Assembly (NCBI GenBank): GCA_947037115.1
Contig: CAMQTN010000001.1
Coordinates: 61,500 to 125,499, forward strand
Length of the DNA stretch: 64,000 nucleotides
Direction of reading: 5' to 3'
Source of the DNA: an uncultured Lachnospiraceae bacterium
GTDB taxonomy: Bacteria; Bacillota; Clostridia; Lachnospirales; Lachnospiraceae
The notes beneath the pieces were generated by a model that worked only from the letters and a program-made list of their open reading frames with translations, was not told the DNA's origin and did not search any database. Every line of letters starts with the position of its first letter. Within the stretch, counting starts at the first letter, position 1. Shown one piece after another: positions 16,313-60,122 of the stretch. The position numbers were made by a program, and so were the translations under genes.

Positions 16313-17401
16313 ATGAAAAAAAAAGTAGTGGTAGGGATGTCCGGCGGGGTGGATTCCTCGGTGGCGGCACTTTTATTAAAGAGACAGGGTTATGACGTGG
16401 TGGGGGTCACCATGCAGATCTGGCAGGATGAGAGCCCCTCTGAAACAGCTGATCAGGGCGGCTGCTGCGGTTTTGGCGCGGCGGAGGATGCAAGGAGGGT
16501 TGCACAGATACTGGATATCCCTCATTATGTGATGAATTTCCGGCAGGAATTCCGGGAAAAGGTGATGGATTATTTTGTGGCGGAGTATCTGGCGGGCAGG
16601 ACGCCCAACCCATGCATTGCCTGCAACCGCCATGTGAAATGGGAGTCCATGTTGCACAGGAGTCTGGAGATCGGGGCGGATTATATCGCCACCGGCCACT
16701 ATGCCAGGGTTTTCAGGCTCGCAAACGGCAGATATGCCGTCAAAAATTCTGTGACGGCGAAAAAAGACCAGACCTATGCGCTGTACAGCCTGACCCAGGA
16801 CCAGCTTGCCCGCACCCTGATGCCGGTGGGGGATTACACGAAAGAGGAGATCAGACAGATGGCACAGGAGGCCGGGCTTTTTGTGGCCCATAAACCGGAC
16901 AGTCAGGAGATCTGCTTTATTCCCGACAACGATTATGCCGCCTTTATCGACAGGGAGGCGGGAGAGCGCGTTCCGAAACCGGGAAATTTTGTGACGAAGG
17001 ACGGTGAAGTGCTGGGCTCCCATCTGGGAATTACCCATTACACGGTGGGACAGCGCAAAGGCCTGAATCTGGCCATGGGGCGTCCTGTGTTTGTCACAGA
17101 AATCAGGCCTGATACGGACGAGGTGGTGATCGGTGAGGCAGACGAGGTGTTCGGGACAGCGCTTGTCTGCAGTCATATCAATTATATGGGGATGGAAGAT
17201 CTGCAAAAGCCGAGGGAGGTGCTTGCAAAGATCCGCTACGCCCATGCAGGCGAGAGATGTGTGATTGAGAAGACAGGGGAAGACCGGATCCGGTGTGTGT
17301 TTGAAAAGCCCGTCCGCGCCATCACGCCGGGACAGGCGGTGGTGTTTTACGAGGACGGGTATGTGCTGGGCGGTGGAACCATCATTGGACGGCCGGACTG
17401 A
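16313..17401 (+). CDS. mnmA: tRNA-specific 2-thiouridylase MnmA
   Basis: [21 protein letters not shown]-loop, [20 protein letters not shown]. Confidence 0.97.
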
Positions 17402-19057
17402 CAGCTTTGGGGGAATGTGAGGCATTCTCCCGATCAGGCGTGAGAGCGCCAGACCGTTTTTGGGCCTGCTTATTCTCATACATGCGGTCGTCTGCGATCT
17501 GATAGATTTTTTCTATGTTATATTCTTTCGGACTGCAGGAAGCATACCCGTAAGCGATGGACAGATGAAGATCGGGGATCTCCAGATTTTTTTCACGGAT
17601 ACATTCCTGAAACTCTCCTGTTATGGAAGAGATTTTCTCTGGATCCCCAGTCTCAGCGATGGCAATAAATTCGTCGCCGCCCATCCGGGCCACGATGCCA
17701 TAAGGACTGAAGGCTTTGTCTATGACTTCGGCGGCGCTTTTGATCAGAAGATCCCCTTTGGCATGTCCGTAGGTGTCGTTTGTGACTTTCAGATTGTTTA
17801 AGTCAAAACAGAAAACGGTATAGTCCGGATTTTCCATTTCCATAATGCGGTTCATGTATTCCATACAGTAGCGTCTGTTGTGAATCTTTGTCAGCTCATC
17901 GGTGTACGCGCTCCTGATCAGGGAGTTGCGTTCCGTCTCCTGCATCATTTTTTCGGTCAGATTGATATAGAAGGAAACCAGCAGAATAAAGATAAAGATG
18001 ACCAGTCCAAGGGGAGCGACACCCTTGACCGGGAGCAGTGTCACGCCGCGATAGCGGTCCATATAATAAAAGAGCAGGTCATAGAAAACACAGGCGGAGA
18101 GCAGGAGCATACCCACCAGAAACAGTTTGTGGACAAGCTGATGGCTGATGTGCAGATTCATAAATTCTACGATGACGAAGTAGACCAGATTGCAGACGAT
18201 CAGCGCCTGCATATATTTCAAAGTCGCCGCACAGTGTACCAGATCCACAGTGTGCAGGCCGATCAGTATGGTGGTGGCGGCAATCTGCACGGTGAGAAGC
18301 GCGCGGTAAAAATGATACATAAGAGGACGGTTCAGGGCGCGTACATCCTCCCGCATGTAAATGACAAGCGGGATGGGCGCCAGATAGAGCGCCAGGTATT
18401 CCAGCAGACCGATCGTGTACAGAGGCATGGAAAAGATCAGGAGGGCATTGTAATAGCATAACGTCCACAGCCCAGAAACAGGGGCAGCCTGTTTTCCGTC
18501 AAAATGACCCGGTAGACGTTTTTCCATTCATAGATCCGAATGGGATCAAAACGGGTAAAGGCGCTGTCTTCCCCAACGGTCAGGTGGAGCTTCAGCGTCT
18601 TTTCCGCATAGTTATCCGGGAGCTCGACAGTCAGGTGACCGCTTCCCACGGTCTTATGCTGGTTCAGTCTGTCCCATCCATACTGATAGATCTGATTGGC
18701 GTCCACATAAATCTTGACTGCGGTCTGTCTGACCGGCAGTAAAAGCGCGTTTCCCACGCAGTCCAGGCGGCCCGGGAAAGACCGTATCATGGTGATGGTA
18801 TCTCCTTTGTTTACGCTGTCAAAGCGAAACGTATCCAGAGATACGTTATGATAGGCACGGTCATTGATCGTGATATTCCAACCGTCGTTCAGGGTGACGC
18901 ATTGCGAGATGGAGGAATAGTCGCTGGAAAACATCCGGTCAATCATGGCGGTGGTCAGGCAGATGCTGATAACCGCATAAACAGTAAATAATGTTCTCAG
19001 GATGGTTTTTCGTGTGGGTTTCCTTTTCTCTTTCATGGTTTTGTCCTCTGGCAGCAT
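17382..19057 (-). pseudogene. Membrane diguanylate cyclase split by a frameshift/deletion (or two-part gene)
   Basis: ORF 18437-19057 (TM + extracellular beta-rich domain, ...NRLPLFLG) and ORF 17382-18527 (TMs + GGDEF, VARMGGDEFIAIAE) overlap out of frame and together read as one membrane GGDEF protein. Confidence 0.65.
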
Positions 19058-29447: not shown

Positions 29448-29537
29448 AAGCAAAACTAACTTCACAAGCGTGTTTTTATTTGTTAGAATAGGACTATGGG
29501 GAAAAGCTTTCGGAATGAAAGCAGGATGGGTTACAAT

Positions 29538-31289
29538 ATGACACACAAAGAGAAGGCGGAACAACTTTTACATCAGAAATATCACTGCTCACAGGCGCTG
29601 TTCGGCGCGTTTGCATCTGATTTTGAGATGGATTTAAAGACGGCGTTTAAGATCAGCACCTGTTTTGGAGGCGGTATGCGTCAGGGCGGGGTATGCGGAT
29701 GTATTACGGCTTCCCTGCTTGTTCTTGGCATGGCGCTTGGCTTTTACGATTCCCAGGACACGGAACGGGAGGTCTATGGAAACAAAAAGACGGATGAGTT
29801 TATCAAGCGCTTCACGGAAGCGATGGACGGTGTGACACTGTGCAGGGATATTCTTGGCAAAGATATTTCCAAGCCGGAGGAGATGGCCATTATCCGAAAG
29901 GAAGGATTGATTTTGCAAAAGTGTCCCAGAGCGATTAATATCAGCATTGAGATTCTGGAAGATATGCTGGCGGAGTACTTGAAAGATGTGGCGCAGAGTA
30001 ATATTGACATGGAGGATATTCCGCGAAACGACGAGATGCAGGTAGTATTGAAAGAGATGGGGCTGATTCGCCGTTTCAGGAGAAATGTGAATAACCTGAT
30101 ACTTGACTCAGAGAAAAAGATCGGTTTTATTCAGTTTGATATCCGTAAGTTTAAGATCATCAATGATTTGTACGGAGAAAAATTCGGCGATGAGGTGCTT
30201 GATTTTGTTCTGAAACAGCTTCAGGAAATCTGTAACAGAAGACAGTTTTATGTAAACCTCCGGGGCGATGTGTTTATGGTAGTGACAGAGTATGAAGAGG
30301 AAGAGGAACTGGAGGCGTTTATATGGAAGCTGAACAGCAGAATTGATAATTTTAAGAGAGTGAAGCTGCAAATATCCTACGGGGTGTATACGGTCGAAGA
30401 CAGAGGGATGGAACTGAGGCAGATGGAAGACCGCGCCGGGATGGCAAGAAAGACGGCTAAAAACAGTGTGATCGGCAACATTGTATTCTATCAGGAGCAG
30501 TTTAAGGATTCTCTCTATAACAGACGGTTTATTGAAAGTAATATGGTGGCGGCCATTCTGGAACGACAGTATCTGATGTACCTGCAGCCGAAATACAGCA
30601 TCGAGAAAAACGAGATCATAGGCGCAGAGGCGCTTGTCAGATGGCGGCATCCGGAGCGGGGCATGATTTATCCGGATCAGTTCATTCCCGTTATTGAGGA
30701 AAACGGCTTTATCCGAAAAGTGGATTATTATATATGGGAGGAAGCCTGCCGGTTTATCAGACAGTGTATGGACGAGGGCCTGCCGGAATGCCCGATTTCA
30801 GTGAATGTCTCAAGGACCCATCTACAGGATGACGAAGTAATCCGCACGTTGGAAGACATGATTGAGAAAATCGGAATTCCAAAACATCTTCTGGAACTGG
30901 AGATTACGGAGACGGTGGACAATAAGCAGGTGAGCAGGAAGGCACTGCAACTGAAGGAAGAGGGATATAAACTGCTGATGGATGATTTCGGAAGCGGTTA
31001 TTCTTCCCTGAACATTCTATTGGAGACGCCCTTTGACCTGATCAAATTGGACAAAAAGTTCATGGAAAACATGATACTGTCCGACAAAGGCAGACTGATT
31101 TTGGAGCAGGTGACTGCTATGGCGAATAAGCTGGGGCTGGAACTTCTGGCGGAAGGTGTTGAGACGAAGGAACAGGTGGAGCTTCTGCGGAGTATTGGCT
31201 GCGACCAGGTGCAGGGATATTATTATGCGAAGCCCATGCCGAAGGAAGTTTTCTTTAAATTATTGCAGAAGCAGAATAAAAAAGCATAG
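29538..31289 (+). CDS. C_GCAxxG_C_C-like redox domain + degenerate GGDEF + EAL phosphodiesterase fusion
   Basis: HCSQALFGAF...FGGGMRQGGVCGCITASLLVLGMALG...CRDILG...KCPRAI, then NLRGDVFMVV, then EALVRWRHPERG, NVSRTHL, LELEITET, DDFGSGYSSL, LLAEGVET, QGYYYAKPMP. Confidence 0.88.
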   Translation: MTHKEKAEQLLHQKYHCSQALFGAFASDFEMDLKTAFKISTCFGGGMRQGGVCGCITASLLVLGMALGFYDSQDTEREVYGNKKTDEFIKRFTEAMDGVTLCRDILGKDISKPEEMAIIRKEGLILQKCPRAINISIEILEDMLAEYLKDVAQSNIDMEDIPRNDEMQVVLKEMGLIRRFRRNVNNLILDSEKKIGFIQFDIRKFKIINDLYGEKFGDEVLDFVLKQLQEICNRRQFYVNLRGDVFMVVTEYEEEEELEAFIWKLNSRIDNFKRVKLQISYGVYTVEDRGMELRQMEDRAGMARKTAKNSVIGNIVFYQEQFKDSLYNRRFIESNMVAAILERQYLMYLQPKYSIEKNEIIGAEALVRWRHPERGMIYPDQFIPVIEENGFIRKVDYYIWEEACRFIRQCMDEGLPECPISVNVSRTHLQDDEVIRTLEDMIEKIGIPKHLLELEITETVDNKQVSRKALQLKEEGYKLLMDDFGSGYSSLNILLETPFDLIKLDKKFMENMILSDKGRLILEQVTAMANKLGLELLAEGVETKEQVELLRSIGCDQVQGYYYAKPMPKEVFFKLLQKQNKKA

Positions 31290-31307: not shown

Positions 31308-32240
31308 ATGGATTATAAGGCAATTCCGTTTGAACAGAGAATCAAGGATAACATTAGGAACTATGAGATGAATAACCTGTATGCGCTCGATACGCTGGCT
31401 GAATACTGTAAAGCGTTGTGCTCGGTGACGGATGCGACAGTTTTACTCACGGAGCGGCACGGGGAAAAAATTATATCGGTCGGCGGATTTGCCGGTTTTA
31501 AGCCGGATGTGGTAGGTGACCCCGGGCGCAAGGTCAGGGTTTACGGCAGGACCATAGCACATCTGTATGCGGATACGCAGAAAGTTTCTCCCGAAAAAAG
31601 AGAAGCGGTGGAGCGGATGCTGGACGGTTTTGCCAATATGCTTTCCCGTTGGGGAGAGGAGACTTATCTTCACACGGAGACTGCGATTTATGTGGATGAA
31701 CTGGAACAGAAGCTGAACGTACAGCATGTGCAGACCGCGAAAGGAGAGCAGGAGGATGCGCTCACCGGCGTGTATCACCGGCGGTATTTTGAGGAGCGCA
31801 TGAAAGTGATAGACAGGGCAGAAGTGGCGCCGGTAGCTGTCATTAACGTGAATATCAACGACTGGAAGTTTGTAAATGACCATTTTGGGGATGAGGAGAG
31901 CGACCGGCTGATTAAGACAGTTGCCGGGATTTTGAAGCAGGAGAAGAAACCCGACTATATCATTGGCCGTGTTGACGGGGATGTTTTTATTGTACTTATT
32001 CCCATGGCACAGGACGGGGAGGCCGAAAGTTACTGCGACCGTGTCCGGCAGGCGTGTCTTTCCTTTGAGGATAAGATTCTGGCGCCTTCGGTGGCCTGCG
32101 GTGTCGTCTACAAGACGAATGTGGAGGAGAAGATAGAGGATAAGCTCGACGATGCGGAGTATGAGATGTTCAATAATAAGTTCGAAGTGAAGAACGCACC
32201 GGGATACAGAGAGCGGCTGGAACATGGTCTTCACTCCTAA
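31308..32240 (+). CDS. GGDEF-like domain protein with degenerate signature (VDGDVF)
   Basis: DALTGVYHRRYFEERM...INDWKFVNDHFGDEESDRLIKTVA...IGRVDGDVFIVLIP. Confidence 0.85.
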   Translation: MDYKAIPFEQRIKDNIRNYEMNNLYALDTLAEYCKALCSVTDATVLLTERHGEKIISVGGFAGFKPDVVGDPGRKVRVYGRTIAHLYADTQKVSPEKREAVERMLDGFANMLSRWGEETYLHTETAIYVDELEQKLNVQHVQTAKGEQEDALTGVYHRRYFEERMKVIDRAEVAPVAVINVNINDWKFVNDHFGDEESDRLIKTVAGILKQEKKPDYIIGRVDGDVFIVLIPMAQDGEAESYCDRVRQACLSFEDKILAPSVACGVVYKTNVEEKIEDKLDDAEYEMFNNKFEVKNAPGYRERLEHGLHS

Positions 32241-47091: not shown

Positions 47092-47438
47092 GGGCCAGTC
47101 AAGGTTTCGACAGGGGTCCTGCAGCTGGAGAAGCTATCCGCAGGCTGATGCGTGAAATCGCAAACTTAAACACAAACGCTGAAGACAATTTAGCATACGC
47201 TGCCTAATGGCAGCTGTCCGCCTTAGTGCACCTGCACATTAAGAACCGGGCATCGACTATGCAGGAAACGACGCGGGGGACGCCTCTTACCCGCGGGCGT
47301 ATCAGAGGCTACTGAATCCATGAGGGTGTCTTTCTCCACATGGAGGAGGGAATGAGGAGCAATCCGGAATGAGAGACTATGATAGTAGAAGGACAGGGAA
47401 TGGGCTTTTGGACACGGGTTCGACTCCCGTCTGGTCCA
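47092..47438 (+). ncRNA. ssrA: Transfer-messenger RNA (tmRNA)
   Basis: 5' GGGCCAG pairs with 3' CTGGTCC; tag ORF ANLNTNAEDNLAYAA-stop at 47160-47207; T-arm GGGTTCGACTCCC; adjacent to smpB; CCA not encoded. Confidence 0.96.
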
Positions 47439-47639
47439 CTGGGATAAGTTCTTAAATACTCTTTTTATACGGGTGTTTAAGGACTTTTCTTTTTCTGAAG
47501 GTGAAATACTCACAAAAAATACGCACAGGAAATATACACATGCGGACCTGTTCACAATTCACTGGACATAGCTTCTGTTTAGCGGTAAAATAAGAATAAA
47601 TATGTTTTTTTTAATTCTTATGAGGAGGGTGGCAGAGCT

Positions 47640-58682: not shown

Positions 58683-60122
58683 TCACAGACCGGTTTCAGA
58701 CGATGATTGAATCTGAAACTGGTCTTTTCCGTTTCCTTTCGCTTCGTAGAGCGCCTTATCAGCGTTCTGGTAAAGCAGCTCGTAGGTATCGCTGCTGGCG
58801 GCCAGGCTTATGCCGATACTGATGGAGAGTTTCTGGTCCGGGTATTTGCTGTCAAAATTCTGGTGAACGATGGAGATAAATTTTCTAAGCATACCGTTGA
58901 TTTCCGCGGTAGAGAAGTCGCGGCCTGAGAACACGGCAAACTCATCGCCGCCAAGACGTCCGACGATATCTTTGTTGCGGTTAAAATAGTTTTCCAGAAT
59001 GGAGGCATATTCCCGCAGAACCTGATCCCCGACAGGATGACCGAGCTGGTCATTGATCAGCTTGAAGTTATCCATATCCATGATCATTAAAATTCCCTTA
59101 TCAGGCCTGTCAGCCAGCGACAGACGCACGAGCTCCTCAAAACTTTCTCTGTTGAGCAGTTTGGTCAGAGAGTCCATTCTGGCTTTCGTGCGGATCGTGC
59201 TCATCTCTCTGGAAAGTAAAGAGGACAGGCAGAAGAGCAGAGCGGAGGCGATTATGGCAATGACCAGCATGGGAGATTCAATCCGCCATAAGTCTTTTAG
59301 TACCTCGTTGCGGTTCATACAGGTGATGAAGTACCAGTCAGTGTTCGGGATTGTGTTAATGCTGACAAAATAGACGCTCTCGTCGCCCAGAATGTCAGTT
59401 TGGCCGGTTTGCCCGGCATCCAGAAGCCGGCTGATATTCTGGTACAGAAGAGATTCGTGTTCAGAGGATAAAACAGTGCCGGTAAACGCAGCGTCAGAGT
59501 CGGCCAAGATGAGCCGGCTGTCTCTGGTGACAAAAAGGGCGTGTTCGATTTTATCGTATGTAATTTCCTCCGCCAGCCGGGAGGCATAGTCCAGATAAAC
59601 ATCCGTGGACAGGACGGTCATTGCGGGAGAAGTGTCCAAAAGACTGGTTACGCTTACGCATGTGCCGCCCGTCATCGCATCCACATAGGGCTCACCGAAA
59701 GCGGGCAGGGAGTGTGAAAGGCCCTCCTGATACCAGTCGCGCTCCGTGACGACAAAGTCATCTTCGGGAACCCAGCCCGAGGCGTCGAAGTAATTTCCAA
59801 GGCTGTCTCCCATGTACAGGCCATAGGGATAAGCCTCGTGGGTGTCGACACTGGTGTACATCAACTCATAGACAGCCTCGTTTTCAAGGCCGAGCTGCTC
59901 GATCATATCCTTATAGACAGTCACTTCATTCAGGACAGATTCAGCCCATGCGCTGAGTTCTTCGGCATAATACTGTGACTCCAGCGAGAGTTTCTCTCTG
60001 GAAAGCGTCAGGATTTCCTGCCTGACAAGCATAAAAAAGATGATGATCATGATGAGAACGATGGGGACTATGGTGCTGACCAGTTTTATATTAGCCCAGA
60101 TATAACGACTTTTTGCTTTCAA
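58683..60122 (-). CDS. Diguanylate cyclase with Cache-like extracellular sensor
   Basis: N-terminal TM, extracellular sensor, DSLTKLLNRESFEELV, VGRLGGDEFAVFSGRD intact GGDEF. Confidence 0.93.
   Translation of the reverse strand: MKAKSRYIWANIKLVSTIVPIVLIMIIIFFMLVRQEILTLSREKLSLESQYYAEELSAWAESVLNEVTVYKDMIEQLGLENEAVYELMYTSVDTHEAYPYGLYMGDSLGNYFDASGWVPEDDFVVTERDWYQEGLSHSLPAFGEPYVDAMTGGTCVSVTSLLDTSPAMTVLSTDVYLDYASRLAEEITYDKIEHALFVTRDSRLILADSDAAFTGTVLSSEHESLLYQNISRLLDAGQTGQTDILGDESVYFVSINTIPNTDWYFITCMNRNEVLKDLWRIESPMLVIAIIASALLFCLSSLLSREMSTIRTKARMDSLTKLLNRESFEELVRLSLADRPDKGILMIMDMDNFKLINDQLGHPVGDQVLREYASILENYFNRNKDIVGRLGGDEFAVFSGRDFSTAEINGMLRKFISIVHQNFDSKYPDQKLSISIGISLAASSDTYELLYQNADKALYEAKGNGKDQFQIQSSSETGL

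Follow-up and report, generated by a model that had tools for sequence, protein, structure and literature searches.

The window, a stretch of 64,000 nucleotides from contig CAMQTN010000001.1 of an uncultured Lachnospiraceae bacterium, contains a forward-strand gene at 29538-31289 (stop codon 31287-31289), which encodes a protein of 583 amino acids with a C_GCAxxG_C_C domain (PF09719), a degenerate GGDEF domain and an EAL domain. This structure was derived from the ORF, the Pfam matches and 88 full-length homologues. A longer in-frame ORF opens at 29496, which is not the conserved start; the conserved start is the ATG at 29538, with M1 being invariant in the aligned relatives. Pfam scans located PF09719 at residues 15-143 (E 3.4e-22; 79 bits at a cut-off of 27 bits), GGDEF (PF00990) at residues 180-309 (E 1e-16) and EAL (PF00563) at residues 339-566 (E 5e-65), all three in one frame. 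The NCBIfam model TIGR01909 also scored above its cut-off (58 vs. 47 bits). The original prediction, which had given these coordinates and this reading frame, assigned the N-terminus to the C_GCAxxG_C_C family and placed it in front of GGDEF and EAL, was confirmed in all of these points, and its N-terminal motifs HCSQALF (C17), FGGGMRQGGVCGC (C53, C55), CRDILG (C102) and KCPRAI (C129) were all recovered. To these, a sixth conserved cysteine was added (C42, in TCFGGG).

The N-terminal domain comprises residues 1-148 (29538-29981), as defined by PF09719, an all-helical AF2 model, the conserved cysteines and dN/dS. It is followed by a variable linker (residues 149-176; 29982-30065) with a mean identity of 46% and a pLDDT below 50 at residues 149-171, which leads into a long helix (165-190). 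The degenerate GGDEF domain (residues 177-312; 30066-30473), assigned by PF00990 and conservation, carries RGDVF at residues 242-246, and the EAL phosphodiesterase domain (residues 335-575; 30540-31262) was assigned by PF00563, the alignment to the EAL domain of MorA and conservation in relatives.

The downstream neighbour on the same strand (31308-32240) encodes a protein of 310 amino acids, for which Pfam indicated a second degenerate GGDEF domain. Its motif DGDVF is kept in 22-23 of 23 relatives, and an N-terminal CxxxC is partly conserved (C34 in 18 and C38 in 14 of the 23). In about 20 relatives the fusion gene is followed by this second GGDEF gene, usually together with groESL, as in the window; since it does not adjoin the fusion gene in the remaining relatives, it is regarded as an optional partner. 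No gene neighbourhood was conserved across the relatives of the fusion: only a subset shares groESL, the glycolysis genes and the second GGDEF gene, so that the context gives no clue to signal or target. The host genome encodes one PF09719 domain, 20 GGDEF matches, several of them with intact motifs, and one PilZ protein, which indicates that c-di-GMP signalling is present in the host. A search of this genome for c-di-GMP-I riboswitches gave no match, with the control being equally silent. Elsewhere in the window, a GGDEF gene with an intact motif (17382-18527, reverse strand), a GGDEF gene with a dCache-like sensor region (58683-60122, reverse strand) and a tmRNA gene (47092-47439, forward strand; tag AEDNLAYAA) could be identified.

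Searching 85,462 species genomes for the fusion protein yielded 80 loci, of which nearly all span the whole protein with 65-82% identity. The hosts are Lachnospiraceae or metagenome bins with a related or uncertain label, and include the cultured strains Eubacterium plexicaudatum ASF492, Lachnospiraceae 10-1 and Bacterium D16-36, D16-56 and C-53. Within the same genus, a whole, split or broken copy was detected in 36 of 60 genomes, 33 of which have one full-length match. The alignment of relatives comprises 88 distinct full-length sequences. Stop codons, frameshifts or an internal deletion were observed in the fusion gene of some relatives (L011/L098, L044, L124, L062) and may reflect either real decay or errors of assembly.

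A profile of the fusion N-termini separates the fusions (288-304 bits) from stand-alone PF09719 proteins (at most 151 bits). With this profile, the fusion was found in ten of the 334 Lachnospiraceae genera sampled. Across 391 genomes of the class, no fusion was detected beyond this family; an earlier full-length search, in which three candidates were scored per genome, is weaker evidence on the range outside the family. PF09719 itself is common among anaerobes and is carried by 210 of 299 Lachnospiraceae genomes, usually as a stand-alone protein. In a tree of 75 PF09719 domains the fusions form one group (support 99/93), and judging from these sequences the PF09719-EAL fusion has one origin.

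In the EAL domain, the residues E364, N423, E455, E458, D482, D483, D505, E539 and E542 are invariant among the relatives, and K503 and Q559 are kept in nearly all of them. The signature residues align with those of the structurally solved EAL enzyme MorA, and a residue set of this kind has been classed as active (PMC12900916). The motifs EALVRW, NVS, ELEITET, DDFGSGYSSL, DKKF and AEGVET, on which an intact EAL domain had been predicted, are all present, so that the domain is considered catalytically intact by its residues. The likewise predicted replacement of GGDEF by RGDVF also held. R(S/G)DVF takes the place of the motif throughout the relatives, and as RSDVF is the usual form (84 of 88), the RGDVF of the window is a minority variant. 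The catalytic Glu is replaced by V245 (Ile in 1 of the 88 relatives), the GG[DE]EF motif of an active diguanylate cyclase is lacking, and the RxxD inhibitory site is absent from the domain as read by eye; the domain is predicted to be dead as a cyclase. The GTP-holding residues D201, F205, K206, N209 and D210 are kept. From complete EAL residues combined with R(S/G)DVF, a phosphodiesterase devoid of cyclase activity is predicted, and phosphodiesterase activity of the fusion protein is considered very likely, with c-di-GMP to pGpG being the expected reaction. Among solved structures, the GGDEF-EAL part is matched best by RmcA/PA0575 with GTP (5m3c, the top match), MorA, DosP and PA0861. Binding of GTP to GGDEF raises EAL hydrolysis in RmcA and RbdA (PMC10874727), and by analogy a GTP relay via GGDEF to EAL may operate in the fusion protein.

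Each of the six cysteines (C17, C42, C53, C55, C102, C129) is present in 87-88 of the 88 fusions, with one relative (L137) having Gly at C42. Four of them, C17, C53, C102 and C129, are the family cysteines and occur in all 75 PF09719 domains aligned. C55 is Cys in 18 of 18 fusion domains of the tree compared to 4 of 57 others, and C42 in 17 of 18 compared to 13 of 57; on the basis of this alignment, both are characteristic of the fusion clade. Selection was estimated as dN of each domain over dS of the whole gene (median of 23 pairs). The values for EAL (0.039) and the cysteine domain (0.041) were nearly equal, those for GGDEF (0.055) and the linker (0.106) higher. The cysteine domain is therefore under purifying selection as strong as that on the enzyme.

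The AF2 model of the cysteine domain (29538-29987; AlphaFold, 44 domains) is all helical with a pLDDT of 94.8 and a pTM of 0.90, and places C17, C53 and C102 at or beside helix starts. For the full-length model a pTM of 0.47 was obtained, and the relative placement of the domains is uncertain. A comparison of the cysteine domain with solved structures revealed no match by sequence, and by fold the best E was 2.2. Going by the model, PF09719 likely represents an unsolved fold. Remote kinship of the N-terminus with solved structures such as split-Soret cytochromes was also considered and dismissed, as neither sequence nor fold gave any match.

Clues to the chemistry of PF09719 were collected from its other occurrences. 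Its annotation describes a putatively redox-active family, and some members are selenoproteins (PMC13188914, PMC9312934). In one protein (L267, G515:C196) a 2x[4Fe-4S] dicluster ferredoxin domain is fused in front of PF09719, which hints at a role of the family in electron transfer or Fe-S chemistry. A dinitrogenase iron-molybdenum cofactor domain (Nitro_FeMo-Co, PF02579) is fused to PF09719 according to Pfam in L266, and judging by their sequences L268 and L150 are fusions of the same kind. Stand-alone copies lie beside genes for Mrp/NUBPL-type Fe-S carrier NTPases and near DUF134-like and metallo-beta-lactamase-like genes. FeMo-co-type genes were found near stand-alone PF09719 in 3 of 40 test and 0 of 40 control regions, which is suggestive only. 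By association, the fusions, the Fe-S carrier neighbours and the selenoproteins would point to redox or metal chemistry for PF09719. Further fusions, recognized by eye (L144-L147, L149), join it to GNAT acetyltransferase-like, NUDIX-like, MarR-GNAT-like and ketopantoate-reductase-like proteins. Genes for c-di-GMP turnover are not enriched beside stand-alone PF09719, EAL being present in 2 of 40 test and 2 of 40 control loci. A c-di-GMP gene lies next to stand-alone PF09719 in a few loci (L018, L038/L173, L021/L041), and since such pairs are too few, no link is claimed.

The original prediction had described a soluble cysteine-rich module in the input position of the fusion protein, which the present data support, and an input role of the cysteine domain is considered probable; the redox- or metal-gated turnover that it also suggested is kept as a candidate mechanism. 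In the preferred reading, to which a probability of roughly 0.45 is assigned, a cytosolic Fe-S or thiol redox sensor, possibly a metal sensor, gates the EAL phosphodiesterase via the GTP-binding, dead GGDEF domain. For the cysteine module we infer Fe-S or thiol chemistry: the four family cysteines together with C42 and C55 would either hold an Fe-S cluster or act as redox-active thiols, and the state of the cluster or thiols would be changed by oxygen or another oxidant, by metal supply or by electron load. Such a change could shift the helical domain, and the shift may reach the EAL dimer via the helix 165-190 and the GTP-binding GGDEF. In gut Lachnospiraceae, c-di-GMP and consequently motility or adhesion would in this way respond to local oxidation or metal status. 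The fusion is probably an undescribed tie of redox or metal state to the swimming-settling switch in strict anaerobes. More tentatively, it is conceivable that PF09719 is an Fe-S or thiol/selenol redox switch, with a fold unseen among solved structures, that was recruited once as an intracellular sensor directly gating c-di-GMP hydrolysis in strict gut anaerobes.

Among the alternatives, a metal sensor or structural site for zinc or ferrous iron, which would set the geometry of the phosphodiesterase dimer with no redox chemistry, is unlikely. It would fit the invariant cysteines in a helical fold, for which the helical, zinc-binding CZB domain of some cyclases is a precedent (PMC8846402), and a PF09719 member of Bacteroides thetaiotaomicron is listed, together with an Nramp metal transporter, in a group of iron-dependent genes (PMC10434189). 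However, the selenoprotein members and the ferredoxin fusion agree better with redox chemistry. In the Pfam scan, the fusion protein gave no match to the CZB zinc sensor profile (three His and one Cys). The cysteine domain could also be a passive tether for stability or localisation, with the phosphodiesterase being controlled by GTP through GGDEF alone. The retention of D201, K206, N209 and D210 in the degenerate GGDEF and the precedent of GTP control in RmcA and RbdA (PMC10874727) speak for such a tether, which is nevertheless rather improbable given six conserved cysteines and an N-terminus under the same purifying selection as EAL.

A reversed order of control, in which PF09719 keeps an electron-transfer or redox role of its own and is regulated by c-di-GMP or localised by EAL, would be in line with its usual stand-alone occurrence and its fusions to non-sensor GNAT-like and NUDIX-like proteins. 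EAL domains that are pure c-di-GMP receptors tend to lose hydrolytic residues. Here, all hydrolytic residues including the general base E539 are kept and PF09719 occupies the N-terminal position of the usual sensor, which makes this order of control improbable. An assembly chimera or a decaying gene, to which the stops, frameshifts or deletion in a few relatives (L011/L098, L044, L124, L062) might be taken to point, is practically excluded, as the architecture is also found in isolates and dN/dS is about 0.04; a chance join or chimera is ruled out by the 88 distinct relatives, isolates among them, and by dN/dS.

The original prediction had regarded the architecture as apparently uncharacterised, and a search of 5.39 million papers revealed none on C_GCAxxG_C_C together with EAL; no paper giving a function of PF09719 and no solved structure of it were found. 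In the text of a review with a census of c-di-GMP sensors, the domain is not mentioned. The class of sensor-GGDEF-EAL proteins is well known; a PF09719 sensor is not. Since PF09719 is joined here to an easily assayed enzyme, phosphodiesterase activity could serve as a readout of what the domain senses. If the redox-switch reading is true, it would represent a new class of second-messenger sensor and would provide PF09719 as a family with its first function that can be assayed. Known redox sensors such as flavin PAS, haem, hemerythrin and periplasmic CSS domains are mainly those of aerobes and facultative bacteria; the fusion would reveal a way in which redox or metal state is coupled to c-di-GMP in strict gut anaerobes.

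Several known systems resemble the fusion in part. RmcA (PA0575) of Pseudomonas aeruginosa is likewise a GGDEF-EAL phosphodiesterase tied to the redox state, whose EAL is activated by its GTP-binding GGDEF, but it senses via four PAS domains with flavin among the cofactors and does not contain such a cysteine module (PMC8846402). In PdeC and the other CSS-motif EAL phosphodiesterases of E. coli, the redox state of cysteines controls EAL (PMC8846402). Their sensor, however, is a Dsb-dependent periplasmic loop with two cysteines between transmembrane helices, whereas the fusion has a soluble, helical six-cysteine domain of an unrelated family; no CSS-motif periplasmic domain was found before its EAL, and Pfam gives PF09719, GGDEF and EAL only. 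Bhr-HD-GYP of Ferrovum also controls c-di-GMP hydrolysis by a metal-based redox sensor domain (PMC8846402), but with a hemerythrin di-iron site and an HD-GYP output, both of which are unrelated domains. DosP (PdeO) and PdeA (CC3396) share the fusion of a sensor or a degenerate GGDEF to an active EAL, and differ in that oxygen is sensed by a haem-PAS domain, or control is by GTP with no cysteine module present. The stand-alone C_GCAxxG_C_C proteins (PF09719/TIGR01909) consist of a homologous domain that has the four family cysteines, and they have no output domain; in the fusion clade, C55 and nearly always C42 come in addition to these four.
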